Assembly (NCBI GenBank): GCA_037893245.1
Contig: JBAIAA010000694.1
Span: 372,001-436,000 of the forward strand
DNA: 64,000 nucleotides
Source: Crossaster papposus
Taxonomy: Eukaryota > Echinodermata > Asteroidea > Velatida > Solasteridae
Direction of reading: 5' to 3'
Position 1 is the stretch's first letter; the number at the start of each line of letters is the position of its first letter. The notes below the pieces were generated by a model. It saw only the letters and a list, made by a program, of their open reading frames with translations, did no database searches and was not told where the DNA came from. Made by a program: the position numbers and the translations under genes. Below, one piece after another: positions 1 through 64,000 of the stretch.

Positions 1-1371
1 TTCCCCCTTACAATTGTTCGTTTTTCTAAAAAAAAAAAAAAAAAAAAAAAAAGGCAAATAATTGTTGGCCAATGTTGATAGGAATGCAAGAATAACCCCT
101 GGCCACTTTTAATTTCTCCTAAAACCAAAGTCAATTTATGACGAATTGGAATTGAAATATAAGACTAACCCCGTACAATGTTTTAATTTGTTTCCAAGAA
201 CTAATTAAATTTCCGCCAATTTTAATAGAAAAGCAAGGATAACCCCTTTCCCCCCTTACAGTTGTTCGTTCAAAAAAAACCAGCAATTATCAATTAATTT
301 TGGTCCTATTTTGATAAGAATACAAGGTTAACCCCTGGCAACTTTCAATTTCTCCTGAAAGTAAATTTCTGGCGAATTGAAATTTAAATATAAGACTAAC
401 CCCATACAATGTTTTTATTTCTCCAAAATGTCATTTTTGTGGCCAATTTTGAAACAGAATGAAAGGTTATACCCTTGCAGGTTTTGTATTTTCCCAAAAA
501 GTCAGTTTTGGGGATAATTTTAATTTAAACGCGAGGCTAACCTCTCACAATTATTTTATTCTAGGCCAATTTTAGACGGACAAAAACAAACCGAGGCTAA
601 CTCCTCACAACTGGTCAATTTTCGCAAACAATTATTTGTTGGGGAAATTTTTTATTTAAATCTCGAGGCTAACTCCTTACAATTATTTATTTGCAAGTAA
701 ATAACACATGCATTGCCACCCTACTCCTGGGCACCACGAGGCAAGGCTGTCTGTCTGATTTTCCGTTGTTTCCTATGTGCGCGTATGTTGTGCAGTGCAC
801 CCCCCCCCCCCACCCCCCCCCCCCCCCCCCCCCCCCCACCCCCCTACGGGCGCACTAGCCTCATTCAAGCCCTATTGAAACAAGTGTAAAAACCCAGTCT
901 CGAAATGTTATACTTCCCCAGCCTGCACGCAGGCATTTTACAAGGGGCATCCCTCCACGTTCTCGGGCAATTAGGACCCATTTTTCAACCGTAATTTTAT
1001 CAAGTCTTCCCTCAGATTGAAGTCCCAAAACCAGAGGGGTTGATCCTGGGCTATTATTTATACAATCCCAGCATTGTTTTTTTACCAAACGGATTTCTTT
1101 TTCAAATAGAATTGTGGGGGCACATTTCATGCTAATGAGCTAGCGTAGAAATTCTCACTTCAATTCGGGCAGTGCACCCCCCTATGAGCCCGCGTTTCGC
1201 CGGTGACCGCCATTTGTGTGGCGCGCCCTCTATTGACATGCAATAAGTCGGTTTTTCGGACAATAAATGCGTGGGCTCATAAACCCTGAAAATACAGTTT
1301 CCACTTGTTTCTTTGAGCATATGTAAACAGAGCTATTACTCCGGCTTCCCAACCCATTAAGGCACATCGAT
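1..1371 (+). repeat. Tandem unit 0, partial, A-type
   Basis: The unit starts inside the first AT subrepeat. The A-tract is at 28-52 and the C-tract at 800-844 (45 nt, As at 812 and 838). The palindrome is at 921-934 and the stem-loop at 1183-1281. Confidence 0.95.
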
Positions 1372-1395
1372 TTGAATCAATTTTATCTATCTCGT

Positions 1396-1467
1396 GGTAG
1401 AATGACCGAGTGTTTAAGAACCTCGACTGCGGTATCCATGGTCCGGGTTCGAGTCCCGGTCCGGCCC
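1396..1467 (+). ncRNA. tRNA-like pol III module, reference copy 1
   Basis: This 72-nt segment resembles a tRNA of the Ser/Leu kind but is not a good tRNA. An A-box-like TGACCGAGTGT lies at 1403-1413 and a perfect B box GGTTCGAGTCC at 1446-1456. The T arm is a flawless 5-bp stem (CCGGG/CCCGG) with a 7-nt TTCGAGT loop. The acceptor pairing GGTAGAA with TCCGGCC has two mismatches, the D stem does not pair, and the anticodon arm (around GACTGCGGTA) is only partly paired with an 8-nt loop and lacks a Ser-type long variable arm. It is therefore better called a tRNA-derived element (SINE-head-like or pseudo-tRNA) than a working tRNA. A T6 stop follows 11 nt downstream, so an RNA of about 90 nt is predicted. 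No base difference was seen in any of the 37 copies. Confidence 0.6.
1403..1456 (+). promoter_or_regulatory. Internal pol III type 2 promoter (A box + B box)
   Basis: The A-box-like TGACCGAGTGT (1403-1413) differs from the usual TGGCNNAGTGG at a few positions. The B box GGTTCGAGTCC (1446-1456) matches the GGTTCGANTCC consensus at every position. The spacing of 32 nt between boxes is normal for tRNA genes. It recurs 31-84 nt after the landmark in every unit. TFIIIC binding is inferred from the consensus match, not shown. Confidence 0.6.
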
Positions 1468-1484
1468 GAGGCCTTTCGTTTTTT
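1463..1484 (+). terminator. GGCC mini-hairpin plus T6, pol III stop
   Basis: GGCC-CGA-GGCC (1463-1473) can fold into a tight hairpin overlapping the 3' end of the tRNA-like part. Six Ts follow at 1479-1484. A run of four or more Ts on the coding strand is enough to stop RNA polymerase III. Units starting at 4777, 6469, 8163 and 11560 have T to G at the base 103 nt after the landmark, between hairpin and T6, which leaves the T6 intact. Confidence 0.55.
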
Positions 1485-1560
1485 CCAGTTCCAACGCACG
1501 CTGTTTCGCAATCTTTTCCTTAACATAATTAATTTATCGTCCTCACTCACCAACCGAGTT
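1485..1560 (+). other. Spacer between the two tRNA-like modules
   Basis: This 76-bp stretch is the same in all copies as far as I can see. It contains the AT-rich AATTAATTT and ends CCAACCGAGTT. No promoter element or structure is recognised beyond its position 5' of the second module. Confidence 0.4.
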
Positions 1561-1623
1561 TAGCTGACCGGCTTAATTCGTCAGGTTGGGACTGTCCGCG
1601 GAGGTTCAGGATCGAGCCTGCAA
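1561..1623 (+). ncRNA. Second, degenerate tRNA-like module
   Basis: TAGCTGACCGG (1561-1571) resembles an A box of the TAGCTCAGTCGG kind. CTGAC (1564-1568) pairs with GTCAG (1580-1584) as a D-arm-like hairpin. GGGACTGTCC sits where an anticodon arm would be. CAGG (1607-1610) pairs with CCTG (1617-1620) around a shortened B-box-like GGATCGAGCC (1609-1618). Acceptor pairing is not evident. An 18-T run follows at once. I infer a decayed tRNA-derived unit, similar to Lys-type SINE heads. B-type units have GGATCGTGCC, and one copy (49080) has G to A in the B-box-like motif, so it is less conserved than the first module. Confidence 0.35.
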
Positions 1624-1641
1624 TTTTTTTTTTTTTTTTTT
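1624..1641 (+). terminator. T18 tract, possible pol III stop
   Basis: Eighteen consecutive Ts directly follow the second tRNA-like module. In A-type units the run is pure or has a single A (8422, 22057, 23739). In B-type units it is split by AA. It could end a pol III transcript or be the remnant of a minus-strand retroposon poly(A) tail. Confidence 0.45.
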
Positions 1642-1660
1642 AAAGAACAATAATCACAAT

Positions 1661-2408
1661 TCCGCCAATTTTAATGGAAATACAAGGCTAACCCCTGTTC
1701 CCCCTTACAATTGTTCGTTTTTCTAAAAAAAAAAAAAAAAAAAAAAAAAAGGCAAATAATTGTTGGCCAATGTTGATAGGAATGCAAGAATAACCCCTGG
1801 CCACTTTTAATTTCTCCTAAAACCAAAGTCAATTTATGACGAATTGGAATTGAAATATAAGACTAACCCCGTACAATGTTTTAATTTGTTTCCAAGAACT
1901 AATTAAATTTCCGCCAATTTTAATAGAAAAGCAAGGATAACCCCTTTCCCCCCTTACAGTTGTTCGTTCAAAAAAAACTAGCAATTATCAATTAATTTTG
2001 GTCCTATTTTGATAAGAATACAAGGTTAACCCCTGGCAACTTTCAATTTCTCCTGAAAGTTAATTTCTGGCGAATTGAAATTTAAATATAAGACTAACCC
2101 CATACAATGTTTTTATTTCTCCAAAATGTCATTTTTGTGGCCAATTTTGAAACAGAATGAAAGGTTATACCCTTGCAGGTTTTGTATTTTCCCAAAAAGT
2201 CAGTTTTGGGGATAATTTTAATTTAAACGCGAGGCTAACCTCTCACAATTATTTTATTCTAGGCCAATTTTAGACGGACAAAAACAAACCGAGGCTAACT
2301 CCTCACAACTGGTCAATTTTCGCAAACAATTATTTGTTGGGGAAATTTTTTATTTAAATCTCGAGGCTAACTCCTTACAATTATTTATTTGCAAGTAAAT
2401 AACACATG
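1661..2408 (+). repeat. AT-rich domain of ~10 diverged ~70-90 bp subrepeats
   Basis: The domain is built of blocks sharing a GCCAATTTT-like start, a middle AAGGCTAACCCC-like motif and a CTTACAATT-TTATTT-like end. Approximate blocks in this unit are 1661-1750, 1751-1837, 1838-1909, 1910-1999, 2000-2068, 2069-2138, 2139-2207, 2208-2261, 2262-2338 and 2339-2408. Blocks 1-3 resemble blocks 4-6 in order, so an ancestral trimer of about 230-250 bp was duplicated. Stop codons occur in every frame and no gene is seen. Confidence 0.85.
1725..1750 (+). repeat. A26 homopolymer tract
   Basis: A run of about 23-27 As occurs at this place in every unit, inside the first subrepeat; in the first partial unit it is 28-52. 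One copy is interrupted by T (33963). It lies 83 bp after the T-tract, so the two could pair. Its length is nearly constant, unlike the C-tract. It may be an old poly(A) tail or a local expansion of the AAAA found in sister blocks. Confidence 0.9.
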
Positions 2409-2497
2409 CATTGCCACCCTACTCCTGGGCACCACGAGGCAAGGCTGTCTGTCTGATTTTCCGTTGTTTCCTATGTGCGCGTATGTTGTGCAGTGCA
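2409..2497 (+). other. GC-richer segment before the C-tract
   Basis: This segment holds GGGCACCACGAGG, a short CTGTCTGTCTG repeat and ends GCAGTGCA at the C-tract. B-type units carry CCCGGGCACC instead of CCTGGGCACC. A short + strand reading frame crosses into the C-tract and would encode polyproline; I do not regard it as a gene. Confidence 0.4.
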
Positions 2498-2514
2498 CCC
2501 CCCCCCCCCCCCCC

Positions 2515-2546
<32 letters not shown>

Positions 2547-2553
2547 ACCCCCC
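2498..2553 (+). repeat. Hypervariable C-tract (56 nt in this copy)
   Basis: A run of C with an A at 2515 and another at 2547 sits between GCAGTGCA and TACGGG. Across the 38 copies it ranges from 25 nt (33047-33071) to 74 nt (21194-21267). Nearly all copies end A-CCCCCC-TA, and interior A positions vary. The + strand could form an i-motif and the - strand a G-quadruplex. Positions for other copies are given under each unit. Confidence 0.97.
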
Positions 2554-2891
2554 TACGGGCGCACTAGCCTCATTCAAGCCCTATTGAAACAAGTGTAAAA
2601 ACCCAGTCTCGAAATGTTATACTTCCCCAGCCTGCACGCAGGCATTTTACAAGGGGCATCCCTCCACGTTCTCGGGCAATTAGGACCCATTTTTCAACCG
2701 TAATTTTATCAAGTCTTCCCTCAGATTGAAGTCCCAAAACCAGAGGGGTTGATCCTGGGCTATTATTTATACAATCCCAGCATTGTTTTTTTACCAAACG
2801 GATTTCTTTTTCAAATAGAATTGTGGGGGCACATTTCATGCTAATGAGCTAGCGTAGAAATTCTCACTTCAATTCGGGCAGTGCACCCCCC
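2554..2891. other. Spacer with 14-bp palindrome
   Basis: This stretch of some 340 bp separates the C-tract from the stem-loop region. GCCTGC-AC-GCAGGC at 2630-2643 is a perfect palindrome (6-bp arms, 2-nt centre). Near its end GCAGTGCA-CCCCCC-TA recurs, a second short version of the sequence around the C-tract. An 89-codon frame is open on the - strand (2570-2839) but shows no coding signature. Confidence 0.4.
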
Positions 2892-2990
2892 TATGAGCCC
2901 GCGTTTCGCCGGTGACCGCCATTTGTGTGGCGCGCCCTCTATTGACATGCAATAAGTCGGTTTTTCGGACAATAAATGCGTGGGCTCATA
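2892..2990 (+). other. Conserved ~100-nt stem-loop
   Basis: TATGAGCCC (2892-2900) is the exact reverse complement of GGGCTCATA (2982-2990), a 9-bp closing stem. Inside it CGCCA-TTTGTG-TGGCG is a second perfect hairpin. The same fold can be drawn 91-189 nt before the landmark in other units (1183-1281 in the first). It may be a structured RNA, part of a SINE-like body or a cruciform; no family is recognised. Confidence 0.35.
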
Positions 2991-3080
2991 AACCCTGAAA
3001 ATACAGTTTCCACTTGTTTCTTTGAGCATATGTAAACAGAGCTATTACTCCGGCTTCCCAACCCATTAAGGCACATCGAT

Positions 3081-4776
3081 TTGAATCAATTTTATCTATC
3101 TCGTGGTAGAATGACCGAGTGTTTAAGAACCTCGACTGCGGTATCCATGGTCCGGGTTCGAGTCCCGGTCCGGCCCGAGGCCTTTCGTTTTTTCCAGTTC
3201 CAACGCACGCTGTTTCGCAATCTTTTCCTTAACATAATTAATTTATCGTCCTCACTCACCAACCGAGTTTAGCTGACCGGCTTAATTCGTCAGGTTGGGA
3301 CTGTCCGCGGAGGTTCAGGATCGAGCCTGCAATTTTTTTTTTTTTTTTTTTAAAGAACAATAATCACAATTCCGCCAATTTTAATGGAAATACAAGGCTA
3401 ACCCCTGTTCCCCCTTACAATTGTTCGTTTTTCTAAAAAAAAAAAAAAAAAAAAAAAAAGGCAAATAATTGTTGGCCAATGTTGATAGGAATGCAAGAAT
3501 AACCCCTGGCCACTTTTAATTTCTCCTAAAACCAAAGTCAATTTATGACGAATTGGAATTGAAATATAAGACTAACCCCGTACAATGTTTTAATTTGTTT
3601 CCAAGAACTAATTAAATTTCCGCCAATTTTAATAGAAAAGCAAGGATAACCCCTTTCCCCCCTTACAGTTGTTCGTTCAAAAAAAACCAGCAATTATCAA
3701 TTAATTTTGGTCCTATTTTGATAAGAATACAAGGTTAACCCCTGGCAACTTTCAATTTCTCCTGAAAGTTAATTTCTGGAGAATTGAAATTTAAATATAA
3801 GACTAACCCCATACAATGTTTTTATTTCTCCAAAATGTCATTTTTGTGGCCAATTTTGAAACAGAATGAAAGGTTATACCCTTGCAGGTTTTGTATTTTC
3901 CCAAAAAGTCAGTTTTGGGGATAATTTTAATTTAAACGCGAGGCTAACCTCTCACAATTATTTTATTCTAGGCCAATTTTAGACGGACAAAAACAAACCG
4001 AGGCTAACTCCTCACAACTGGTCAATTTTCGCAAACAATTATTTGTTGGGGAAATTTTTTATTTAAATCTCGAGGCTAACTCCTTACAATTATTTATTTG
4101 CAAGTAAATAACACATGCATTGCCACCCTACTCCTGGGCACCACGAGGCAAGGCTGTCTGTCTGATTTTCCGTTGTTTCCTATGTGCGCGTATGTTGTGC
4201 AGTGCACCCCCCCCCCACCCCCCCCCCCCCCCCCCCCCCCCCACCCCCCTACGGGCGCACTAGCCTCATTCAAGCCCTATTGAAACAAGTGTAAAAACCC
4301 AGTCTCGAAATGTTATACTTCCCCAGCCTGCACGCAGGCATTTTACAAGGGGCATCCCTCCACGTTCTCGGGCAATTAGGACCCATTTTTCAACCGTAAT
4401 TTTATCAAGTCTTCCCTCAGATTGAAGTCCCAAAACCAGAGGGGTTGATCCTGGGCTATTATTTATACAATCCCAGCATTGTTTTTTTACCAAACGGATT
4501 TCTTTTTCAAATAGAATTGTGGGGGCACATTTCATGCTAATGAGCTAGCGTAGAAATTCTCACTTCAATTCGGGCAGTGCACCCCCCTATGAGCCCGCGT
4601 TTCGCCGGTGACCGCCATTTGTGTGGCGCGCCCTCTATTGACATGCAATAAGTCGGTTTTTCGGACAATAAATGCGTGGGCTCATAAACCCTGAAAATAC
4701 AGTTTCCACTTGTTTCTTTGAGCATATGTAAACAGAGCTATTACTCCGGCTTCCCAACCCATTAAGGCACATCGAT
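3081..4776 (+). repeat. Tandem unit 2, A-type
   Basis: 1,696 bp. C-tract 4207-4249 (43 nt). Private C to A at 3780 in the AT domain. Confidence 0.97.
3105..3176 (+). ncRNA. tRNA-like pol III module, copy 2
   Basis: Same sequence as the 1396-1467 copy. B box 3155-3165; T6 3188-3193. Confidence 0.55.
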
Positions 4777-6468
4777 TTGAATCAATTTTATCTATCTCGT
4801 GGTAGAATGACCGAGTGTTTAAGAACCTCGACTGCGGTATCCATGGTCCGGGTTCGAGTCCCGGTCCGGCCCGAGGCCTGTCGTTTTTTCCAGTTCCAAC
4901 GCACGCTGTTTCGCAATCTTTTCCTTAACATAATTAATTTATCGTCCTCACTCACCAACCGAGTTTAGCTGACCGGCTTAATTCGTCAGGTTGGGACTGT
5001 CCGCGGAGGTTCAGGATCGAGCCTGCAATTTTTTTTTTTTTTTTTTTAAAGAACAATAATCACAATTCCGCCAATTTTAATGGAAATACAAGGCTAACCC
5101 CTGTTCCCCCTTACAATTGTTCGTTTTTCTAAAAAAAAAAAAAAAAAAAAAAAAAGGCAAATAATTGTTGGCCAATGTTGATAGGAATGCAAGAATAACC
5201 CCTGGCCACTTTTAATTTCTCCTAAAACCAAAGTCAATTTATGACGAATTGGAATTGAAATATAAGACTAACCCCGTACAATGTTTTAATTTGTTTCCAA
5301 GAACTAATTAAATTTCCGCCAATTTTAATAGAAAAGCAAGGATAACCCCTTTCCCCCCTTACAGTTGTTCGTTCAAAAAAAACCAGCAATTATCAATTAA
5401 TTTTGGTCCTATTTTGATAAGAATACAAGGTTAACCCCTGGCAACTTTCAATTTCTCCTGAAAGTTAATTTCTGGCGAATTGAAATTTAAATATAAGACT
5501 AACCCCATACAATGTTTTTATTTCTCCAAAATGTCATTTTTGTGGCCAATTTTGAAACAGAATGAAAGGTTATACCCTTGCAGGTTTTGTATTTTCCCAA
5601 AAAGTCAGTTTTGGGGATAATTTTAATTTAAACGCGAGGCTAACCTCTCACAATTATTTTATTCTAGGCCAATTTTAGACGGACAAAAACAAACCGAGGC
5701 TAACTCCTCACAACTGGTCAATTTTCGCAAACAATTATTTGTTGGGGAAATTTTTTATTTAAATCTCGAGGCTAACTCCTTACAATTATTTATTTGCAAG
5801 TAAATAACACATGCATTGCCACCCTACTCCTGGGCACCACGAGGCAAGGCTGTCTGTCTGATTTTCCGTTGTTTCCTATGTGCGCGTATGTTGTGCAGTG
5901 CACCCCCCCCCCACCCCCCCCCCCCCCCCCCCCCACCCCCCTACGGGCGCACTAGCCTCATTCAAGCCCTATTGAAACAAGTGTAAAAACCCAGTCTCGA
6001 AATGTTATACTTCCCCAGCCTGCACGCAGGCATTTTACAAGGGGCATCCCTCCACGTTCTCGGGCAATTAGGACCCATTTTTCAACCGTAATTTTATCAA
6101 GTCTTCCCTCAGATTGAAGTCCCAAAACCAGAGGGGTTGATCCTGGGCTATTATTTATACAATCCCAGCATTGTTTTTTTACCAAACGGATTTCTTTTTC
6201 AAATAGAATTGTGGGGGCACATTTCATGCTAATGAGCTAGCGTAGAAATTCTCACTTCAATTCGGGCAGTGCACCCCCCTATGAGCCCGCGTTTCGCCGG
6301 TGACCGCCATTTGTGTGGCGCGCCCTCTATTGACATGCAATAAGTCGGTTTTTCGGACAATAAATGCGTGGGCTCATAAACCCTGAAAATACAGTTTCCA
6401 CTTGTTTCTTTGAGCATATGTAAACAGAGCTATTACTCCGGCTTCCCAACCCATTAAGGCACATCGAT
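4777..6468 (+). repeat. Tandem unit 3, A-type
   Basis: 1,692 bp. C-tract 5903-5941 (39 nt). Has the T to G variant at 4880 before the T6 stop. Confidence 0.97.
4801..4872 (+). ncRNA. tRNA-like pol III module, copy 3
   Basis: B box 4851-4861; T6 4884-4889; G variant between them at 4880. Confidence 0.55.
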
Positions 6469-8162
6469 TTGAATCAATTTTATCTATCTCGTGGTAGAAT
6501 GACCGAGTGTTTAAGAACCTCGACTGCGGTATCCATGGTCCGGGTTCGAGTCCCGGTCCGGCCCGAGGCCTGTCGTTTTTTCCAGTTCCAACGCACGCTG
6601 TTTCGCAATCTTTTCCTTAACATAATTAATTTATCGTCCTCACTCACCAACCGAGTTTAGCTGACCGGCTTAATTCGTCAGGTTGGGACTGTCCGCGGAG
6701 GTTCAGGATCGAGCCTGCAATTTTTTTTTTTTTTTTTTTAAAGAACAATAATCACAATTCCGCCAATTTTAATGGAAATACAAGGCTAACCCCTGTTCCC
6801 CCTTACAATTGTTCGTTTTTCTAAAAAAAAAAAAAAAAAAAAAAAAAGGCAAATAATTGTTGGCCAATGTTGATAGGAATGCAAGAATAACCCCTGGCCA
6901 CTTTTAATTTCTCCTAAAACCAAAGTCAATTTATGACGAATTGGAATTGAAATATAAGACTAACCCCGTACAATGTTTTAATTTGTTTCCAAGAACTAAT
7001 TAAATTTCCGGCAATTTTAATAGAAAAGCAAGGATAACCCCTTTCCCCCCTTACAGTTGTTCGTTCAAAAAAACCCAGCAATTATCAATTAATTTTGGTC
7101 CTATTTTGATAAGAATACAAGGTTAACCCCTGGCAACTTTCAATTTCTCCTGAAAGTTAATTTCTGGCGAATTGAAATTTAAATATAAGACTAACCCCAT
7201 ACAATGTTTTTATTTCTCCAAAATGTCATTTTTGTGGCCAATTTTGAAACAGAATGAAAGGTTATACCCTTGCAGGTTTTGTATTTTCCCAAAAAGTCAG
7301 TTTTGGGGATAATTTTAATTTAAACGCGAGGCTAACCTCTCACAATTATTTTATTCTAGGCCAATTTTAGACGGACAAAAACAAACCGAGGCTAACTCCT
7401 CACAACTGGTCAATTTTCGCAAACAATTATTTGTTGGGGAAATTTTTTATTTAAATCTCGAGGCTAACTCCTTACAATTATTTATTTGCAAGTAAATAAC
7501 ACATGCATTGCCACCCTACTCCTGGGCACCACGAGGCAAGGCTGTCTGTCTGATTTTCCGTTGTTTCCTATGTGCGCGTATGTTGTGCAGTGCACCCCCC
7601 CCCCCACCCCCCCCCCCCCCCCCCCCCCACCCCCCTACGGGCGCACTAGCCTCATTCAAGCCCTATTGAAACAAGTGTAAAAACCCAGTCTCGAAATGTT
7701 ATACTTCCCCAGCCTGCACGCAGGCATTTTACAAGGGGCATCCCTCCACGTTCTCGGGCAATTAGGACCCATTTTTCAACCGTAATTTTATCAAGTCTTC
7801 CCTCAGATTGAAGTCCCAAAACCAGAGGGGTTGATCCTGGGCTATTATTTATACAATCCCAGCATTGTTTTTTTACCAAACGGATTTCTTTTTCAAATAG
7901 AATTGTGGGGGCACATTTCATGCTAATGAGCTAGCGTAGAAATTCTCACTTCAATTCGGGCAGTGCACCCCCCTATGAGCCCGCGTTTCGCCGGTGACCG
8001 CCATTTGTGTGGCGCGCCCTCTATTGACATGCAATAAGTCGGTTTTTCGGACAATAAATGCGTGGGCTCATAAACCCTGAAAATACAGTTTCCACTTGTT
8101 TCTTTGAGCATATGTAAACAGAGCTATTACTCCGGCTTCCCAACCCATTAAGGCACATCGAT
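6469..8162 (+). repeat. Tandem unit 4, A-type
   Basis: 1,694 bp. C-tract 7595-7635 (41 nt). T to G at 6572; private C to G at 7011. Confidence 0.97.
6493..6564 (+). ncRNA. tRNA-like pol III module, copy 4
   Basis: B box 6543-6553; T6 6576-6581; G variant at 6572. Confidence 0.55.
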
Positions 8163-9863
8163 TTGAATCAATTTTATCTATCTCGTGGTAGAATGACCGA
8201 GTGTTTAAGAACCTCGACTGCGGTATCCATGGTCCGGGTTCGAGTCCCGGTCCGGCCCGAGGCCTGTCGTTTTTTCCAGTTCCAACGCACGCTGTTTCGC
8301 AATCTTTTCCTTAACATAATTAATTTATCGTCCTCACTCACCAACCGAGTTTAGCTGACCGGCTTAATTCGTCAGGTTGGGACTGTCCGCGGAGGTTCAG
8401 GATCGAGCCTGCAATTTTTTTATTTTTTTTTTTAAAGAACAATAATCACAATTCCGCCAATTTTAATGGAAATACAAGGCTAACCCCTGTTCCCCCTTAC
8501 AATTGTTCGTTTTTCTAAAAAAAAAAAAAAAAAAAAAAAAAGGCAAATAATTGTTGGCCAATGTTGATAGGAATGCAAGAATAACCCCTGGCCACTTTTA
8601 ATTTCTCCTAAAACCAAAGTCAATTTATGACGAATTGGAATTGAAATATAAGACTAACCCCGTACAATGTTTTAATTTGTTTCCAAGAACTAATTAAATT
8701 TCCGCCAATTTTAATAGAAAAGCAAGGATAACCCCTTTCCCCCCTTACAGTTGTTCGTTCAAAAAAAACCAGCAATTATCAATTAATTTTGGTCCTATTT
8801 TGATAAGAATACAAGGTTAACCCCTGGCAACTTTCAATTTCTCCTGAAAGTTAATTTCTGGCGAATTGAAATTTAAATATAAGACTAACCCCATACAATG
8901 TTTTTATTTCTCCAAAATGTCATTTTTGTGGCCAATTTTGAAACAGAATGAAAGGTTATACCCTTGCAGGTTTTGTATTTTCCCAAAAAGTCAGTTTTGG
9001 GGATAATTTTAATTTAAACGCGAGGCTAACCTCTCACAATTATTTTATTCTAGGCCAATTTTAGACGGACAAAAACAAACCGAGGCTAACTCCTCACAAC
9101 TGGTCAATTTTCGCAAACAATTATTTGTTGGGGAAATTTTTTATTTAAATCTCGAGGCTAACTCCTTACAATTATTTATTTGCAAGTAAATAACACATGC
9201 ATTGCCACCCTACTCCTGGGCACCACGAGGCAAGGCTGTCTGTCTGATTTTCCGTTGTTTCCTATGTGCGCGTATGTTGTGCAGTGCACCCCCCCCCCCC
9301 CACCCCCCCCCCCCCCCCCCCCCCCCCCCACCCCCCTACGGGCGCACTAGCCTCATTCAAGCCCTATTGAAACAAGTGTAAAAACCCAGTCTCGAAATGT
9401 TATACTTCCCCAGCCTGCACGCAGGCATTTTACAAGGAGCATCCCTCCACGTTCTCGGGCAATTAGGACCCATTTTTCAACCGTAATTTTATCAAGTCTT
9501 CCCTCAGATTGAAGTCCCAAAACCAGAGGGGTTGATCCTGGGCTATTATTTATACAATCCCAGCATTGTTTTTTTACCAAACGGATTTCTTTTTCAAATA
9601 GAATTGTGGGGGCACATTTCATGCTAATGAGCTAGCGTAGAAATTCTCACTTCAATTCGGGCAGTGCACCCCCCTATGAGCCCGCGTTTCGCCGGTGACC
9701 GCCATTTGTGTGGCGCGCCCTCTATTGACATGCAATAAGTCGGTTTTTCGGACAACAAATGCGTGGGCTCATAAACCCTGAAAATACAGTTTCCACTTGT
9801 TTCTTTGAGCATATGTAAACAGAGCTATTACTCCGGCTTCCCAACCCATTAAGGCACATCGAT
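8163..9863 (+). repeat. Tandem unit 5, A-type, first of dimer
   Basis: 1,701 bp. C-tract 9289-9336 (48 nt). G variant at 8266, A in the T-tract at 8422, GGAG at 9436-9439 and T to C at 9756. The 8266, 9436-9439 and 9756 variants recur in unit 7. Confidence 0.97.
8187..8258 (+). ncRNA. tRNA-like pol III module, copy 5
   Basis: B box 8237-8247; T6 8270-8275; G variant at 8266. Confidence 0.55.
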
Positions 9864-11559
9864 TTGAATCAATTTTATCTATCTCGTGGTAGAATGACCG
9901 AGTGTTTAAGAACCTCGACTGCGGTATCCATGGTCCGGGTTCGAGTCCCGGTCCGGCCCGAGGCCTTTCGTTTTTTCCAGTTCCAACGCACGCTGTTTCG
10001 CAATCTTTTCCTTAACATAATTAATTTATCGTCCTCACTCACCAACCGAGTTTAGCTGACCGGCTTAATTCGTCAGGTTGGGACTGTCCGCGGAGGTTCA
10101 GGATCGAGCCTGCAATTTTTTTTTTTTTTTTTTAAAGAACAATAATCACAATTCCGCCAATTTTAATGGAAATACAAGGCTAACCCCTGTTCCCCCTTAC
10201 AATTGTTCGTTTTTCTAAAAAAAAAAAAAAAAAAAAAAAAAGGCAAATAATTGTTGGCCAATGTTGATAGGAATGCAAGAATAACCCCTGGCCACTTTTA
10301 ATTTCTCCTAAAACCAAAGTCAATTTATGACGAATTGGAATTGAAATATAAGACTAACCCCGTACAATGTTTTAATTTGTTTCCAAGAACTAATTAAATT
10401 TCCGCCAATTTTAATAGAAATGCAAGGATAACCCCTTTCCCCCCTTACAGTTGTTCGTTTAAAAAAAACCAGCAATTATCAATTAATTTTGGTCCTATTT
10501 TGATAAGAATACAAGGTTAACCCCTGGCAACTTTCAATTTCTCCTGAAAGTTAATTTCTGGCGAATTGAAATTTAAATATAAGACTAACCCCATACAATG
10601 TTTTTATTTCTCCAAAATGTCATTTTTGTGGCCAATTTTGAAACAGAATGAAAGGTTATACCCTTGCAGGTTTTGTATTTTCCCAAAAAGTCAGTTTTGG
10701 GGATAATTTTAATTTAAACGCGAGGCTAACCTCTCACAATTATTTTATTCTAGGCCAATTTTAGACGGACAAAAACAAACCGAGGCTAACTCCTCACAAC
10801 TGGTCAATTTTCGCAAACAATTATTTGTTGGGGAATTTTTTTATTTAAATCTCGAGGCTAACTCCTTACAATTATTTATTTGCAAGTAAATAACACATGC
10901 ATTGCCACCCTACTCCTGGGCACCACGAGGCAAGGCTGTCTGTCTGATTTTCCGTTGTTTCCTATGTGCGCGTATGTTGTGCAGTGCACCCCCCCCCACC
11001 CCCCCCCCCCCCCCCCCCCCCCCCCACCCCCCTACGGGCGCACTAGCCTCATTCAAGCCCTATTGAAACAAGTGTAAAAACCCAGTCTCGAAATGTTATA
11101 CTTCCCCAGCCTGCACGCAGGCATTTTACAAGGGGCATCCCTCCACGTTCTCGGGCAATTAGGACCCATTTTTCAACCGTAATTTTATCAAGTCTTCCCT
11201 CAGATTGAAGTCCCAAAACCAGAGGGGTTGATCCTGGGCTATTATTTATACAATCCCAGCATTGTTTTTTTACCAAACGGATTTCTTTTTCAAATAGAAT
11301 TGTGGGGGCACATTTCATGCTAATGAGCTAGCGTAGAAATTCTCACTTCAATTCGGGCAGTGCACCCCCCTATGAGCCCGCGTTTCGCCGGTGACCGCCA
11401 TTTGTGTGGCGCGCCCTCTATTGACATGCAATAAGTCGGTTTTTCGGACAATAAATGCGTGGGCTCATAAACCCTGAAAATACAGTTTCCACTTGTTTCT
11501 TTGAGCATATGTAAACAGAGCTATTACTCCGGCTTCCCAACCCATTAAGGCACATCGAT
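9864..11559 (+). repeat. Tandem unit 6, A-type, second of dimer
   Basis: 1,696 bp. C-tract 10989-11032 (44 nt). A to T at 10421 (GAAATGCAAGG), shared with unit 8. Confidence 0.97.
9888..9959 (+). ncRNA. tRNA-like pol III module, copy 6
   Basis: B box 9938-9948; T6 9971-9976. Confidence 0.55.
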
Positions 11560-51663: not shown

Positions 51664-51698
<35 letters not shown>

Positions 51699-52232
51699 AC
51701 CCCCCTACGGGCGCACTAGCCTCATTCAAGCCCTATTGAAACAAGTGTAAAAACCCAGTCTCGAAATGTTATACTTCCCCAGCCTGCACGCAGGCATTTT
51801 ACAAGGGGCATCCCTCCACGTTCTCGGGCAATTAGGACCCATTTTTCAACCGTAATTTTATCAAGTCTTCCCTCAGATTGAAGTCCCAAAACCAGAGGGG
51901 TTGATCCTGGGCTATTATTTATACAATCCCAGCATTGTTTTTTTACCAAACGGATTTCTTTTTCAAATAGAATTGTGGGGGCACATTTCATGCTAATGAG
52001 CTAGCGTAGAAATTCTCACTTCAATTCGGGCAGTGCACCCCCCTATGAGCCCGCGTTTCGCCGGTGACCGCCATTTGTGTGGCGCGCCCTCTATTGACAT
52101 GCAATAAGTCGGTTTTTCGGACAATAAATGCGTGGGCTCATAAACCCTGAAAATACAGTTTCCACTTGTTTCTTTGAGCATATGTAAACAGAGCTATTAC
52201 TCCGGCTTCCCAACCCATTAAGGCACATCGAT
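50538..52232 (+). repeat. Tandem unit 30, A-type
   Basis: 1,695 bp. C-tract 51665-51705 (41 nt, 34 Cs unbroken). Confidence 0.97.
50562..50633 (+). ncRNA. tRNA-like pol III module, copy 30
   Basis: B box 50612-50622; T6 50645-50650. Confidence 0.55.
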
Positions 52233-53926: not shown

Positions 53927-55065
53927 TTGAATCAATTTTATCTATCTCGTGGTAGAATGACCGAGTGTTTAAGAACCTCGACTGCGGTATCCATGGTCCG
54001 GGTTCGAGTCCCGGTCCGGCCCGAGGCCTTTCGTTTTTTCCAGTTCCAACGCACGCTGTTTCGCAATCTTTTCCTTAACATAATTAATTTATCGTCCTCA
54101 CTCACCAACCGAGTTTAGCTGACCGGCTTAATTCGTCAGGTTGGGACTGTCCGCGGAGGTTCAGGATCGAGCCTGCAATTTTTTTTTTTTTTTTTTTAAA
54201 GAACAATAATCACAATTCCGCCAATTTTAATGGAAATACAAGGCTAACCCCTGTTCCCCCTTACAATTGTTCGTTTTTCTAAAAAAAAAAAAAAAAAAAA
54301 AAAAAAGGCAAATAATTGTTGGCCAATGTTGATAGGAATGCAAGAATAACCCCTGGCCACTTTTAATTTCTCCTAAAACCAAAGTCAATTTATGACGAAT
54401 TGGAATTGAAATATAAGACTAACCCCGTACAATGTTTTAATTTGTTTCCAAGAACTAATTAAATTTCCGCCAATTTTAATAGAAAAGCAAGGATAACCCC
54501 TTTCCCCCCTTACAGTTGTTCGTTTAAAAAAAACCAGCAATTATCAATTAATTTTGGTCCTATTTTGATAAGAATACAAGGTTAACCCCTGGCAACTTTC
54601 AATTTCTCCTGAAAGTTAATTTCTGGCGAATTGAAATTTAAATATAAGACTAACCCCATACAATGTTTTTATTTCTCCAAAATGTCATTTTTGTGGCCAA
54701 TTTTGAAACAGAATGAAAGGTTATACCCTTGCAGGTTTTGTATTTTCCCCAAAAGTCAGTTTTGGGGATAATTTTAATTTAAACGCGAGGCTAACCTCTC
54801 ACAATTATTTTATTCTAGGCCAATTTTAGACGGACAAAAACAAACCGAGGCTAACTCCTCACAACTGGTCAATTTTCGCAAACAATTATTTGTTGGGGAA
54901 ATTTTTTATTTAAATCTCGAGGCTAACTCCTTACAATTATTTATTTGCAAGTAAATAACACATGCATTGCCACCCTACTCCTGGGCACCACGAGGCAAGG
55001 CTGTCTGTCTGATTTTCCGTTGTTTCCTATGTGCGCGTATGTTGTGCAGTGCACCCCCCCCCCCC

Positions 55066-55096
<31 letters not shown>

Positions 55097-55630
55097 ACCC
55101 CCCTACGGGCGCACTAGCCTCATTCAAGCCCTATTGAAACAAGTGTAAAAACCCAGTCTCGAAATGTTATACTTCCCCAGCCTGCACGCAGGCATTTTAC
55201 AAGGGGCATCCCTCCACGTTCTCGGGCAATTAGGACCCATTTTTCAACCGTAATTTTATCAAGTCTTCCCTCAGATTGAAGTCCCAAAACCAGAGGGGTT
55301 GATCCTGGGCTATTATTTATACAATCCCAGCATTGTTTTTTTACCAAACGGATTTCTTTTTCAAATAGAATTGTGGGGGCACATTTCATGCTAATGAGCT
55401 AGCGTAGAAATTCTCACTTCAATTCGGGCAGTGCACCCCCCTATGAGCCCGCGTTTCGCCGGTGACCGCCATTTGTGTGGCGCGCCCTCTATTGACATGC
55501 AATAAGTCGGTTTTTCGGACAATAAATGCGTGGGCTCATAAACCCTGAAAATACAGTTTCCACTTGTTTCTTTGAGCATATGTAAACAGAGCTATTACTC
55601 CGGCTTCCCAACCCATTAAGGCACATCGAT
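53927..55630 (+). repeat. Tandem unit 32, A-type
   Basis: 1,704 bp. C-tract 55054-55103 (50 nt). Confidence 0.97.
53951..54022 (+). ncRNA. tRNA-like pol III module, copy 32
   Basis: B box 54001-54011; T6 54034-54039. Confidence 0.55.
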
Positions 55631-56774
55631 TTGAATCAATTTTATCTATCTCGTGGTAGAATGACCGAGTGTTTAAGAACCTCGACTGCGGTATCCATGG
55701 TCCGGGTTCGAGTCCCGGTCCGGCCCGAGGCCTTTCGTTTTTTCCAGTTCCAACGCACGCTGTTTCGCAATCTTTTCCTTAACATAATTAATTTATCGTC
55801 CTCACTCACCAACCGAGTTTAGCTGACCGGCTTAATTCGTCAGGTTGGGACTGTCCGCGGAGGTTCAGGATCGAGCCTGCAATTTTTTTTTTTTTTTTTT
55901 AAAGAACAATAATCACAATTCCGCCAATTTTAATGGAAATACAAGGCTAACCCCTGTTCCCCCTTACAATTGTTCGTTTTTCTAAAAAAAAAAAAAAAAA
56001 AAAAAAAAGGCAAATAATTGTTGGCCAATGTTGATAGGAATGCAAGAATAACCCCTGGCCACTTTTAATTTCTCCTAAAACCAAAGTCAATTTATGACGA
56101 ATTGGAATTGAAATATAAGACTAACCCCGTACAATGTTTTAATTTGTTTCCAAGAACTAATTAAATTTCCGCCAATTTTAATAGAAAAGCAAGGATAACC
56201 CCTTTCCCCCCTTACAGTTGTTCGTTTAAAAAAACCCAGCAATTATCAATTAATTTTGGTCCTATTTTGATAAGAATACAAGGTTAACCCCTGGCAACTT
56301 TCAATTTCTCCTGAAAGTTAATTTCTGGCGAATTGAAATTTAAATATAAGACTAACCCCATACAATGTTTTTATTTCTCCAAAATGTCATTTTTGTGGCC
56401 AATTTTGAAACAGAATGAAAGGTTATACCCTTGCAGGTTTTGTATTTTCCCCAAAAGTCAGTTTTGGGGATAATTTTAATTTAAACGCGAGGCTAACCTC
56501 TCACAATTATTTTATTCTAGGCCAATTTTAGACGGACAAAAACAAACCGAGGCTAACTCCTCACAACTGGTCAATTTTCGCAAACAATTATTTGTTGGGG
56601 AAATTTTTTATTTAAATCTCGAGGCTAACTCCTTACAATTATTTATTTGCAAGTAAATAACACATGCATTGCCACCCTACTCCTGGGCACCACGAGGCAA
56701 GGCTGTCTGTCTGATTTTCCGTTGTTTCCTATGTGCGCGTATGTTGTGCAGTGCACCCCCCCCCCCCCCCCCCC

Positions 56775-56805
<31 letters not shown>

Positions 56806-57341
56806 ACCCCCCTACGGGCGCACTAGCCTCATTCAAGCCCCATTGAAACAAGTGTAAAAACCCAGTCTCGAAATGTTATACTTCCCCAGCCTGCACGCAG
56901 GCATTTTACAAGGGGCATCCCTCCACGTTCTCGGGCAATTAGGACCCATTTTTCAACCGTAATTTTATCAAGTCTTCCCTCAGATTGAAGTCCCAAAACC
57001 AGAGGGGTTGATCCTGGGCTATTATTTATACAATCCCAGCATTGTTTTTTTTACCAAACGGATTTCTTTTTCCAATAGAATTGTGGGGGCACATTTCATG
57101 CTAATGAGCTAGCGTAGAAATTCTCACTTCAATTCGGGCAGTGCACCCCCCTATGAGCCCGCGTTTCGCCGGTGACCGCCATTTGTGTGGCGCGCCCTCT
57201 ATTGACATGCAATAAGTCGGTTTTTTCGGACAATAAATGCGTGGGCTCATAAACCCTGAAAATACAGTTTCCACTTGTTTCTTTGAGCATATGTAAACAG
57301 AGCTATTACTCCGGCTTCCCAACCCATTAAGGCACATCGAT
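55631..57341 (+). repeat. Tandem unit 33, A-type
   Basis: 1,711 bp. C-tract 56756-56812 (57 nt). T to C at 56841, extra T near 57045, and GGTTTTTTCGG near 57220 (also in unit 36). Confidence 0.97.
55655..55726 (+). ncRNA. tRNA-like pol III module, copy 33
   Basis: B box 55705-55715; T6 55738-55743. Confidence 0.55.
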
Positions 57342-58490
57342 TTGAATCAATTTTATCTATCTCGTGGTAGAATGACCGAGTGTTTAAGAACCTCGACTGC
57401 GGTATCCATGGTCCGGGTTCGAGTCCCGGTCCGGCCCGAGGCCTTTCGTTTTTTCCAGTTCCAACGCACGCTGTTTCGCAATCTTTTCCTTAACATAATT
57501 AATTTATCGTCCTCACTCACCAACCGAGTTTAGCTGACCGGCTTAATTCGTCAGGTTGGGACTGTCCGCGGAGGTTCAGGATCGAGCCTGCAATTTTTTT
57601 TTTTTTTTTTTTAAAGAACAATAATCACAATTCCGCCAATTTTAATGGAAATACAAGGCTAACCCCTGTTCCCCCTTACAATTGTTCGTTTTTCTAAAAA
57701 AAAAAAAAAAAAAAAAAAAGACAAATAATTGTTGGCCAATGTTGATAGGAATGCAAGAATAACCCCTGGCCACTTTTAATTTCTCCTAAAACCAAAGTCA
57801 ATTTATGACGAATTGGAATTGAAATATAAGACTAACCCCGTACAATGTTTTAATTTGTTTCCAAGAACTAATTAAATTTCCGCCAATTTTAATAGAAAAG
57901 CAAGGATAACCCCTTTCCCCCCTTACAGTTGTTCGTTTAAAAAAACCCAGCAATTATCAATTAATTTTGGTCCTATTTTGATAAGAATACAAGGTTAACC
58001 CCTGGCAACTTTCAATTTCTCCTGAAAGTTAATTTCTGGCGAATTGAAATTTAAATATAAGACTAACCCCATACAATGTTTTTATTTCTCCAAAATGTCA
58101 TTTTTGTGGCCAATTTTGAAACAGAATGAAAGGTTATACCCTTGCAGGTTTTGTATTTTCCCCAAAAGTCAGTTTTGGGGATAATTTTAATTTAAACGCG
58201 AGGCTAACCTCTCACAATTATTTTATTCTAGGCCAATTTTAGACGGACAAAAACAAACCGAGGCTAACTCCTCACAACTGGTCAATTTTCGCAAACAATT
58301 ATTTGTTGGGGAAATTTTTTATTTAAATCTCGAGGCTAACTCCTTACAATTATTTATTTGCAAGTAAATAACACATGCATTGCCACCCTACTCCTGGGCA
58401 CCACGAGGCAAGGCTGTCTGTCTGATTTTCCGTTGTTTCCTATGTGCGCGTATGTTGTGCAGTGCACCCCCCCCCCCCCCCCCCCCCCCC

Positions 58491-58521
<31 letters not shown>

Positions 58522-59055
58522 ACCCCCCTACGGGCGCACTAGCCTCATTCAAGCCCTATTGAAACAAGTGTAAAAACCCAGTCTCGAAATGTTATACTTC
58601 CCCAGCCTGCACGCAGGCATTTTACAAGGGGCATCCCTCCACGTTCTCGGGCAATTAGGACCCATTTTTCAACCGTAATTTTATCAAGTCTTCCCTCAGA
58701 TTGAAGTCCCAAAACCAGAGGGGTTGATCCTGGGCTATTATTTATACAATCCCAGCATTGTTTTTTTACCAAACGGATTTCTTTTTCAAATAGAATTGTG
58801 GGGGCACATTTCATGCTAATGAGCTAGCGTAGAAATTCTCACTTCAATTCGGGCAGTGCACCCCCCTATGAGCCCGCGTTTCGCCGGTGACCGCCATTTG
58901 TGTGGCGCGCCCTCTATTGACATGCAATAAGTCGGTTTTTCGGACAATAAATGCGTGGGCTCATAAACCCTGAAAATACAGTTTCCACTTGTTTCTTTGA
59001 GCATATGTAAACAGAGCTATTACTCCGGCTTCCCAACCCATTAAGGCACATCGAT
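57342..59055 (+). repeat. Tandem unit 34, A-type
   Basis: 1,714 bp. C-tract 58467-58528 (62 nt). G to A at 57721 next to the A-tract. Confidence 0.97.
57366..57437 (+). ncRNA. tRNA-like pol III module, copy 34
   Basis: B box 57416-57426; T6 57449-57454. Confidence 0.55.
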
Positions 59056-60741
59056 TTGAATCAATTTTATCTATCTCGTGGTAGAATGACCGAGTGTTTA
59101 AGAACCTCGACTGCGGTATCCATGGTCCGGGTTCGAGTCCCGGTCCGGCCCGAGGCCTTTCGTTTTTTCCAGTTCCAACGCACGCTGTTTCGCAATCTTT
59201 TCCTTAACATAATTAATTTATCGTCCTCACTCACCAACCGAGTTTAGCTGACCGGCTTAATTCGTCAGGTTGGGACTGTCCGCGGAGGTTCAGGATCGAG
59301 CCTGCAATTTTTTTTTTTTTTTTTTTAAAGAACAATAATCACAATTCCGCCAATTTTAATGGAAATACAAGGCTAACCCCTGTTCCCCCTTACAATTGTT
59401 CGTTTTTCTAAAAAAAAAAAAAAAAAAAAAAAAAGGCAAATAATTGTTGGCCAATGTTGATAGGAATGCAAGAATAACCCCTGGCCACTTTTAATTTCTC
59501 CTAAAACCAAAGTCAATTTATGACGAATTGGAATTGAAATATAAGACTAACCCCGTACAATGTTTTAATTTGTTTCCAAGAACTAATTAAATTTCCGCCA
59601 ATTTTAATAGAAAAGCAAGGATAACCCCTTTCCCCCCTTACAGTTGTTCGTTTAAAAAAAACCAGCAATTATCAATTAATTTTGGTCCTATTTTGATAAG
59701 AATACAAGGTTAACCCCTGGCAACTTTCAATTTCTCCTGAAAGTTAATTTCTGGCGAATTGAAATTTAAATATAAGACTAACCCCATACAATGTTTTTAT
59801 TTCTCCAAAATGTCATTTTTGTGGCCAATTTTGAAACAGAATGAAAGGTTATACCCTTGCAGGTTTTGTATTTTCCCAAAAAGTCAGTTTTGGGGATAAT
59901 TTTAATTTAAACGCGAGGCTAACCTCTCACAATTATTTTATTCTAGACCAATTTTAGACGGACAAAAACAAACCGAGGCTAACTCCTCACAACTGGTCAA
60001 TTTTCGCAAACAATTATTTGTTGGGGAAATTTTTTATTTAAATCTCGAGGCTAACTCCTTACAATTATTTATTTGCAAGTAAATAACACATGCATTGCCA
60101 CCCTACTCCTGGGCACCACGAGGCAAGGCTGTCTGTCTGATTTTCCGTTGTTTCCTATGTGCGCGTATGTTGTGCAGTGCACCCCCCCCCCCCCCCCCCC
60201 CCCCCCCACCCCCCTACGGGCGCACTAGCCTCATTCAAGCCCTATTGAAACAAGTGTAAAAACCCAGTCTCGAAATGTTATACTTCCCCAGCCTGCACGC
60301 AGGCATTTTACAAGGGGCATCCCTCCACGTTCTCGGGCAATTAGGACCCATTTTTCAACCGTAATTTTATCAAGTCTTCCCTCAGATTGAAGTCCCAAAA
60401 CCAGAGGGGTTGATCCTGGGCTATTATTTATACAATCCCAGCATTGTTTTTTTACCAAACGGATTTCTTTTTGAAATAGAATTGTGGGGGCACATTTCAT
60501 GCTAATGAGCTAGCGTAGAAATTCTCACTTCAATTCGGGCAGTGCACCCCCCTATGAGCCCGCGTTTCGCCGGTGACCGCCATTTGTGTGGCGCGCCCTC
60601 TATTGACATGCAATAAGTCGGTTTTTCGGACAACAAATGCGTGGGCTCATAAACCCTGAAAATACAGTTTCCACTTGTTTCTTTGAGCATATGTAAACAG
60701 AGCTATTACTCCGGCTTCCCAACCCATTAAGGCACATCGAT
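59056..60741 (+). repeat. Tandem unit 35, A-type
   Basis: 1,686 bp. C-tract 60182-60214 (33 nt, no internal A). C near 60633, as in units 5 and 7. Confidence 0.97.
59080..59151 (+). ncRNA. tRNA-like pol III module, copy 35
   Basis: B box 59130-59140; T6 59163-59168. Confidence 0.55.
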
Positions 60742-61867
60742 TTGAATCAATTTTATCTATCTCGTGGTAGAATGACCGAGTGTTTAAGAACCTCGACTGC
60801 GGTATCCATGGTCCGGGTTCGAGTCCCGGTCCGGCCCGAGGCCTTTCGTTTTTTCCAGTTCCAACGCACGCTGTTTCGCAATCTTTTCCTTAACATAATT
60901 AATTTATCGTCCTCACTCACCAACCGAGTTTAGCTGACCGGCTTAATTCGTCAGGTTGGGACTGTCCGCGGAGGTTCAGGATCGAGCCTGCAATTTTTTT
61001 TTTTTTTTTTTTAAAGAACAATAATCACAATTCCGCCAATTTTAATGGAAATACAAGGCTAACCCCTGTTCCCCCTTACAATTGTTCGTTTTTCTAAAAA
61101 AAAAAAAAAAAAAAAAAAAAAGGCAAATAATTGTTGGCCAATGTTGATAGGAATGCAAGAATAACCCCTGGCCACTTTTAATTTCTCCTAAAACCAAAGT
61201 CAATTTATGACGAATTGGAATTGAAATATAAGACTAACCCCGTACAATGTTTTAATTTGTTTCCAAGAACTAATTAAATTTCCGCCAATTTTAATAGAAA
61301 TGCAAGGATAACCCCTTTCCCCCCTTACAGTTGTTCGTTTAAAAGAACCCAGCAATTATCAATTAATTTTGGTCCTATTTTGATAAGAATACAAGGTTAA
61401 CCCCTGGCAACTTTCAATTTCTCCTGAAAGTTAATTTCTGGCGAATTGAAATTTAAATATAAGACTAACCCCATACAATGTTTTTATTTCTCCAAAATGT
61501 CATTTTTGTGGCCAATTTTGAAACAGAATGAAAGGTTATACCCTTGCAGGTTTTGTATTTTCCCAAAAAGTCAGTTTTGGGGATAATTTTAATTTAAACG
61601 CGAGGCTAACCTCTCACAATTATTTTATTCTAGGCCAATTTTAGACGGACAAAAACAAACCGAGGCTAACTCCTCACAACTGGTCAATTTTCGCAAACAA
61701 TTATTTGTTGGGGAAATTTTTTATTTAAATCTCGAGGCTAACTCCTTACAATTATTTATTTGCAAGTAAATAACACATGCATTGCCACCCTACTCCTGGG
61801 CACCACGAGGCAAGGCTGTCTGTCTGATTTTCCGTTGTTTCCTATGTGCGCGTATGTTGTGCAGTGC

Positions 61868-61900
<33 letters not shown>

Positions 61901-62435
61901 ACCCCCCTACGGGCGCACTAGCCTCATTCAAGCCCTATTGAAACAAGTGTAAAAACCCAGTCTCGAAATGTTATACTTCCCCAGCCTGCACGCAGGCATT
62001 TTACAAGGGGCATCCCTCCACGTTCTCGGGCAATTAGGACCCATTTTTCAACCGTAATTTTATCAAGTCTTCCCTCAGATTGAAGTCCCAAAACCAGAGG
62101 GGTTGATCCTGGGCTATTATTTATACAATCCCAGCATTGTTTTTTTACCAAACGGATTTCTTTTTCAAATAGAATTGTGGGGGCACATTTCATGCTAATG
62201 AGCTAGCGTAGAAATTCTCACTTCAATTCGGGCAGTGCACCCCCCTATGAGCCCGCGTTTCGCCGGTGACCGCCATTTGTGTGGCGCGCCCTCTATTGAC
62301 ATGCAATAAGTCGGTTTTTTCGGACAATAAATGCGTGGGCTCATAAACCCTGAAAATACAGTTTCCACTTGTTTCTTTGAGCATATGTAAACAGAGCTAT
62401 TACTCCGGCTTCCCAACCCATTAAGGCACATCGAT
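60742..62435 (+). repeat. Tandem unit 36, A-type
   Basis: 1,694 bp. C-tract 61869-61907 (39 nt, 32 Cs unbroken). GAAATGCAAGG near 61310, as in units 6 and 8; extra T near 62317. Confidence 0.97.
60766..60837 (+). ncRNA. tRNA-like pol III module, copy 36
   Basis: B box 60816-60826; T6 60849-60854. Confidence 0.55.
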
Positions 62436-64000
62436 TTGAATCAATTTTATCTATCTCGTGGTAGAATGACCGAGTGTTTAAGAACCTCGACTGCGGTATC
62501 CATGGTCCGGGTTCGAGTCCCGGTCCGGCCCGAGGCCTTTCGTTTTTTCCAGTTCCAACGCACGCTGTTTCGCAATCTTTTCCTTAACATAATTAATTTA
62601 TCGTCCTCACTCACCAACCGAGTTTAGCTGACCGGCTTAATTCGTCAGGTTGGGACTGTCCGCGGAGGTTCAGGATCGAGCCTGCAATTTTTTTTTTTTT
62701 TTTTTTAAAGAACAATAATCACAATTCCGCCAATTTTAATGGAAATACAAGGCTAACCCCTGTTCCCCCTTACAATTGTTCGTTTTTCTAAAAAAAAAAA
62801 AAAAAAAAAAAAAAGGCAAATAATTGTTGGCCAATGTTGATAGGAATGCAAGAATAACCCCTGGCCACTTTTAATTTCTCCTAAAACCAAAGTCAATTTA
62901 TGACGAATTGGAATTGAAATATAAGACTAACCCCGTACAATGTTTTAATTTGTTTCCAAGAACTAATTAAATTTCCGCCAATTTTAATAGAAAAGCAAGG
63001 ATAACCCCTTTCCCCCCTTACAGTTGTTCGTTTAAAAAAAACCAGCAATTATCAATTAATTTTGGTCCTATTTTGATAAGAATACAAGGTTAACCCCTGG
63101 CAACTTTCAATTTCTCCTGAAAGTTAATTTCTGGCGAATTGAAATTTAAATATAAGACTAACCCCATACAATGTTTTTATTTCTCCAAAATGTCATTTTT
63201 GTGGCCAATTTTGAAACAGAATGAAAGGTTATACCCTTGCAGGTTTTGTATTTTCCCAAAAAGTCAGTTTTGGGGATAATTTTAATTTAAACGCGAGGCT
63301 AACCTCTCACAATTATTTTATTCTAGGCCAATTTTAGACGGACAAAAACAAACCGAGGCTAACTCCTCACAACTGGTCAATTTTCGCAAACAATTATTTG
63401 TTGGGGAAATTTTTTATTTAAATCTCGAGGCTAACTCCTTACAATTATTTATTTGCAAGTAAATAACACATGCATTGCCACCCTACTCCTGGGCACCACG
63501 AGGCAAGGCTGTCTGTCTGATTTTCCGTTGTTTCCTATGTGCGCGTATGTTGTGCAGTGCACCCCCCCCCCCCCCCCCCCCCCACCCCCCCCCCCCCCCC
63601 CCCCTCCCCCCCCCCCCACCCCCCTACGGGCGCACTAGCCTCATTCAAGCCCTATTGAAACAAGTGTAAAAACCCAGTCTCGAAATGTTATACTTCCCCA
63701 GCCTGCACGCAGGCATTTTACAAGGGGCATCCCTCCACGTTCTCGGGCAATTAGGACCCATTTTTCAACCGTAATTTTATCAAGTCTTCCCTCAGATTGA
63801 AGTCCCAAAACCAGAGGGGTTGATCCTGGGCTATTATTTATACAATCCCAGCATTGTTTTTTTACCAAACGGATTTCTTTTTCAAATAGAATTGTGGGGG
63901 CACATTTCATGCTAATGAGCTAGCGTAGAAATTCTCACTTCAATTCGGGCAGTGCACCCCCCTATGAGCCCGCGTTTCGCCGGTGACCGCCATTTGTGTG
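62436..64000 (+). repeat. Tandem unit 37, partial, A-type
   Basis: Cut by the window end within the stem-loop. C-tract 63562-63624 (63 nt), the only one with a T (63605). Confidence 0.95.
62460..62531 (+). ncRNA. tRNA-like pol III module, copy 37
   Basis: B box 62510-62520; T6 62543-62548. Last copy in the window. Confidence 0.55.

Follow-up and report, generated by a model that had tools for sequence, protein, structure and literature searches.

A 64,000-nucleotide stretch of the Crossaster papposus genome (assembly GCA_037893245.1, 1.02 Gb; positions 372,001-436,000 of contig JBAIAA010000694.1, here C694; the whole stretch is called the window) consists of tandem repeats in which every unit holds a sequence resembling a transfer RNA (tRNA), with promoter boxes of the RNA polymerase III (pol III) type. 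The locus raises the question of whether such a repeat is a decayed array of tRNA genes, a captured short interspersed nuclear element (SINE), a domain selected for binding by pol III or TFIIIC, or a satellite in which a tRNA remnant is carried along. Our analysis points to the last of these: the array would be a subfamily of an old macrosatellite family in this echinoderm, and its tRNA-Ser piece is most likely a decaying passenger, a reading that we consider probable. The mitochondrial code agrees with an echinoderm: in a 660-base COX1 fragment of a 16.3 kb contig, all six AAA codons stand at asparagine positions of two solved COX1 chains (7o37 and 8ugh), and TGA reads as tryptophan, as in the code of echinoderms and flatworms.

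The array and its unit

A single satellite array fills the whole window, with 37 head-to-tail units of ~1.70 kb. Anchor-to-anchor spacing ranges from 1,679 to 1,727 bp (n = 37 anchors), and the 36 complete units have a mean pairwise identity of 99.4%, counted over ungapped columns only. An earlier note made from the window's sequence had reported 37 head-to-tail tRNA-like modules, each with a perfect B box and a stop of six thymines (T6), and this was borne out: the 73-nt core of the tRNA-like segment (module 1), the strings GGTTCGAGTCC, TGACCGAGTGT, and CGTTTTTTCC, and the T6 run behind module 1 each occur exactly 37 times. From base composition, ~0.12 chance matches to GGTTCGANNCC would be expected per strand in the window.

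The array extends on C694 from about 285,129 through the contig end at 549,900 (~265 kb), a long head-to-tail array of near-identical units as is proper to a satellite. At up to 3 mismatches it holds 150 module-1 cores in a single orientation, 139 of them exact, together with 147 B boxes free of mismatches and 146 T6 strings, and 139 full-length units have a mean identity of 99.3% (2,000 random pairs). Module 1 varies within the array about as much as other stretches do, with 0.0013 and 0.0019 substitutions per site in the two 60-base intervals that cover it and 0.0004-0.0242 in the others. At the left edge the terminal unit is longer and more complete. Near this edge the array is interrupted by a 13.4 kb interval with open frames of the Gypsy type (locus L013, C694 292001-302000), which reads as a Gypsy-type long terminal repeat retrotransposon from frames judged by eye.

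Table 1. Parts of the array and of its repeat unit, with positions in the window
Feature	Positions	Strand	Description
Array, part shown	1..64000	+	37 units; window = C694 372,001-436,000
Module 1, first copy	1394..1466	+	73-nt core, predicted to be tRNA-Ser-derived, without variable arm; 37 exact copies in window
A-box position, module 1	1403..1413	+	TGACCGAGTGT, 2 mismatches to TRGYNNANNNG
B box, module 1	1446..1456	+	GGTTCGAGTCC, perfect; starts 43 bases past A-box start
T6 run behind module 1	1479..1484	+	Possible pol III stop; 37 in window
"Module 2" block	1549..1622	+	Block conserved across the satellite family; no support for a tRNA origin
Deletion junction and T-tract	1619..1641	+	TGC common to both sides; relatives ~600 bases longer here
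AT-rich part	1643..2390	+	Diverged internal repeats
Poly-C tract	2498..2553	+	Example unit

In the unit consensus, the AT-rich part contains seven AAGGCTAACCCC-like motifs and an internal duplication of ~250 bp at ~76%. The most length-variable part of the unit is the poly-C tract, with 30-71 bases among the tracts listed in the window. No open reading frame longer than 89 amino acids was found overlapping the one unit considered.

A tRNA-Ser remnant and a second block

Module 1 was scored against the Rfam covariance model for tRNA, which has a gathering score of 29 bits. The window copy is a weak match at 15.9 bits (E = 6.9), no Rfam family attains its gathering score in the window, and ARAGORN finds no tRNA there, so that the unit falls short of what an array of tRNA genes should contain. 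Folding as a single RNA is little better than for shuffled sequences (z = -1.33 and -0.67 for two module-1 spans, -1.33 for module 2). Alignment was performed against a set of 22 tRNA sequences from this genome, in which Lys, Thr, and Ser predominate and Met and Cys have a single member apiece (two of the 22 come from a bacterial-looking contig), and with 300 mononucleotide shuffles each. The best partners of module 1 in this set are tRNA-Ser genes, against which the window copy scores 54.5 with a shuffle maximum of 46.0. At four other loci, module 1 scores 59.5-68.0 against tRNA-Ser (shuffle maxima 43.0-46.0), and by alignment these copies appear nearer to tRNA-Ser than the window copy does.

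The A-box consensus is TRGYNNANNNG, and the window's A box has two of its conserved positions changed; the B box is perfect. Taken with the tRNA-Ser similarity above the shuffles, these boxes support the proposal that each satellite unit contains tRNA-derived sequence of the pol III promoter type. The starts of the two boxes lie 43 bases apart in all 20 satellite copies sampled in the genome, whereas the distance is 53 in four tRNA-Ser genes; the variable arm is therefore gone, and because the shorter distance is found in every sampled copy, its loss must be old.

The earlier note had gone further and given each unit two tRNA-like pol III modules, the second ~90 bp behind the first and ending in a T-tract. 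There is indeed a second block in 37/37 window units (26 match one version exactly, 10 differ from it once, and 1 differs twice), yet it starts 64 bases past T6 and has no match to the tRNA model at E ≤ 10, either in the window or in one other copy. Its B-box position reads GGATCGAGCCT in 26 units, GGATCGTGCCT in 10, and GAATCGAGCCT in 1. Against the 22 tRNA sequences the window block scores 49.0 (shuffle maximum 46.0), and three copies elsewhere score 45.5, 35.5, and 46.0 (maxima 49.0, 44.0, and 44.5). Module 2 as a second tRNA thus finds no support within this tRNA set: the covariance model is silent, and alignment scores stand above the shuffles in the window but not consistently in the three other copies. 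Of the two, only module 1 holds as tRNA-derived, a tRNA-Ser remnant that lacks the variable arm.

The T-tract behind module 2 consists of 18-19 uninterrupted T in 24 of the 37 units and is interrupted by A or G in the other 13, and the two sides of its junction stand 606 bp apart in the related copy on contig C589. Both sides have TGC in common, which fits a deletion. Judged from this comparison, the T-tract is secondary, brought in by a deletion of ~600 bp and no original part of the unit.

A satellite family and the origin of its tRNA piece

Searching the genome with a 65-nt core of module 1 at up to 3 mismatches gave 155 matches, on one strand only, and none in a reversed control. The window's version of module 1 is nearly confined to C694, which holds 150 of these matches; one lies on C589 and four elsewhere. 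A 42-nt core at the same tolerance gave 1,001 matches (148 on C694; reversed control, 0). A 641-base query from C589, mostly absent from the window's unit, returned 42 matches from 40 scored candidates. They are spread over 13 contigs, namely 12 besides C694 and C694 itself, where the left edge of the array matches at 287,063-287,620; some of the matches are partial. A second query, taken from C77 and comprising modules 1 and 2, likewise had 42 matches from 40 scored candidates and added contigs C266, C49, C461, C833, and C844. Units are spaced at ~1.98-2.0 kb on C186 and C162 and at ~2.42 kb on C266, C49, and C271, and several loci carry tandem runs of their own unit variant. The window array belongs, as one subfamily, to a wider satellite family with units of 1.7, ~2.0, and ~2.4 kb.

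The C589 copy lies inside an inverted repeat of ~3.77 kb, and a separate 217-bp satellite flanks this inverted pair of family units (L033, 1-1564 and 5465-8000). A foldback transposon was considered for this locus and rejected; because the surrounding 217-bp satellite is also partly inverted, an inverted duplication explains the arrangement.

One way to arrive at such a family is for a tRNA-derived SINE to have inserted into an existing satellite unit and to have been amplified with it. The tRNA-Ser-like segment with its A and B boxes would provide the tRNA-derived head of a SINE, and SINE-derived satellites are known (PMC10702118). Five single copies with a near-intact module 1 were examined, none of them free-standing; they were found with one pattern at 1 mismatch allowed, so that a diverged SINE family could be missed. 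In two of them (L061 and L062), similarity to the unit sets in at a similar point, ~30-40 bases ahead of the tRNA part, as capture might predict. In all five, however, satellite sequence is present outside module 1, and in no case does the copy start with the first base of the tRNA part (0/5, a small sample). Because satellite sequence extends beyond module 1 in every case, no SINE parent was found. Neither a tail nor a target-site duplication was noticed by eye in the five copies, for which no systematic test was made. The suggestion that the satellite captured or grew from a dispersed retroposon thus finds no support here, and we regard SINE capture as unlikely. Two single copies, L038 (2026-2819) and L060, have a common non-unit sequence directly behind module 1. 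In L038, the unit sequence flanking it has an 8-base overlap, such as a transposon insertion would leave.

Another possible source is an array of real tRNA-Ser genes that decayed into pseudogenes, and the same genome does contain tandem arrays of intact tRNA-Ser genes. The tRNA-Ser loci on C751, C474, C387, and C97, however, match the unit consensus, L033, and L036 only in the tRNA part and in short stretches at chance level. The box distance of 43 in 20/20 copies also separates the satellite from those genes by an old loss. This origin seems to us rather improbable.

If instead the array were a selected pol III or TFIIIC-bound chromatin domain, the promoter should be the best-kept part of the unit. 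The exact B box in 37/37 window units, and in 147 per 150 module-1 copies on the contig, is what such a role would favor. The A-box position, on the other hand, is altered in all 37 window units, and the B box is broken in 6 of the 20 sampled copies, including array units on C186 and C271 (a second C271 unit is intact). Between loci, mean pairwise identity among seven copies falls from 92.9% upstream to 87.3% in module 1, then rises to 91.0% in the spacer and 94.4% in module 2, figures that represent 21 non-independent pairs without a significance test. These copies are seven of 13 aligned rows; of the rest, five were excluded because the module-1 pattern had found them, and the C419 row because it has an insert. 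The two C589 copies among the seven belong to a locus found through a module-1 pattern, and any resulting bias favors module 1. Four came from a query covering half of module 2, a bias in favor of that block, whose 94.4% may therefore be too high. How module 1 compares with upstream and spacer does not depend on this second bias.

Module 1 is thus less conserved than upstream and spacer, and this speaks against a pol III function that is being maintained. Since a selected promoter should be kept best and module 1 is kept less well than its flanks, a passenger is the most likely interpretation. The earlier proposal of a large pol III or TFIIIC-binding domain is weakened accordingly in our estimate, and as judged from sequence it would be very unlikely.

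Several points weigh against a decaying passenger. Besides the dependence among the pairs just compared, five loci (L034-L038) have no tRNA-model match at E ≤ 5, and under the covariance model other copies exceed the window only slightly (21.1 bits for the C589 relative and 20.2 for a single copy on C714, against 15.9). The A box is intact in 15, the B box in 14, and both in 10 of the 20 sampled copies. This last count is biased upward, since module 1 was part of the queries that found 12 of the 20 (five by one pattern and seven by the C77 query); among the eight found otherwise, A is intact in five, B in six, and both in three. Finally, almost every array unit has an intact B box and T6 (147 and 146 per 150), as a TFIIIC role would also predict, although homogenization can explain this without selection.

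With the passenger as the preferred reading, the ancestral unit would have been longer than the window's and would have held a tRNA-Ser-derived segment without variable arm, with A and B boxes and a short T-run behind it. At the C694 locus, a unit lacking ~600 bp and bearing two A-box changes would have expanded to about 150 copies, with unequal exchange and gene conversion as the presumed cause of both expansion and homogeneity. If the window's units yield a pol III transcript, which would run from module 1 to T6 over about 90 nt, it would be incidental. A bolder variant holds that the array is a TFIIIC-only binding domain, its A box damaged and its B box perfect in 147/150 copies, where tandem sites may organize a chromosome region without making RNA. 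The "extra TFIIIC" sites are a parallel for a damaged A box beside a kept B box. If true, well over a hundred TFIIIC sites would stand in tandem here; we consider this extremely unlikely.

Known systems and other tRNA arrays

In amphibians, tRNA-derived pol III segments are already described from a few satellites, namely Xenopus OAX, newt PolIII/TAN, Rana/polIII, and Hydromantes Hy/polIII (PMC10702118; PMC9659126). Like Xenopus OAX/satellite I, a tandem repeat whose unit is judged too long for a proper satellite (PMC10702118), the starfish repeat contains a tRNA-derived segment in each tandem unit; Xenopus is of another animal group, and the likeness is one of description. With the newt, Rana, and Hydromantes repeats it shares a tRNA-like piece without a convincing SINE parent (PMC10702118). 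Units of the amphibian polIII repeats are about 200-360 nt, and newt PolIII/TAN is transcribed in vitro (PMC10702118); the units here are 1.7-2.4 kb. For Hydromantes Hy/polIII even the tRNA origin is doubted (PMC10702118). In squamate SINE-derived satellites, too, one edge of the array ends in a unit that is longer and more complete, but their parent SINEs are known (PMC10702118), and none was found here. The human 1q23.3 macrosatellite (7.3 kb unit) is also a large tandem unit with tRNA sequence, although it holds real tRNA genes where we find a degenerate remnant (PMC4041453).

In a search confined to open-licence papers, no title named an echinoderm satellite with tRNA pieces. The kind is already known from amphibians; the array adds a case from a phylum in which this search turned up none, with a longer unit. 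Compared with the small amphibian set in PMC10702118, it brings together many loci and several unit lengths within a single assembly. Relatives with more and less intact boxes occur together in this genome, so that selection on such promoters can be examined; in the small sample compared, no sign of selection appears.

Homogeneous tRNA tandem arrays are described as uncommon outside Entamoeba (PMC4041453). In C. papposus, tandem tRNA-Ser arrays lie on C474 (~1.301-1.335 Mb), C387 (2.366-2.385 Mb), and C336 (271-316 kb; L065 and L066), repeating every ~146 and ~153 bp; with the tRNA model, the genes sampled there reach 50.8-67.0 bits. A tRNA-Ser head pattern at up to 2 mismatches has 8,899 genome matches and none in the reversed control. 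An array of 831-bp units occupies C751 1.336-1.422 Mb and is also present on C1205 (L064); the sampled unit combines a tRNA-Ser(CGA) gene with a match to metazoan signal recognition particle RNA (198.2 bits). C479 has many tRNA-Lys(TTT) genes between 24 and 485 kb, several spaced at multiples of 572 bp. The 5.30 Mb contig C8 is bacterial-looking, with COX1-type frames without TGA and two tRNA genes with an encoded CCA end, and is perhaps a cobiont contig.

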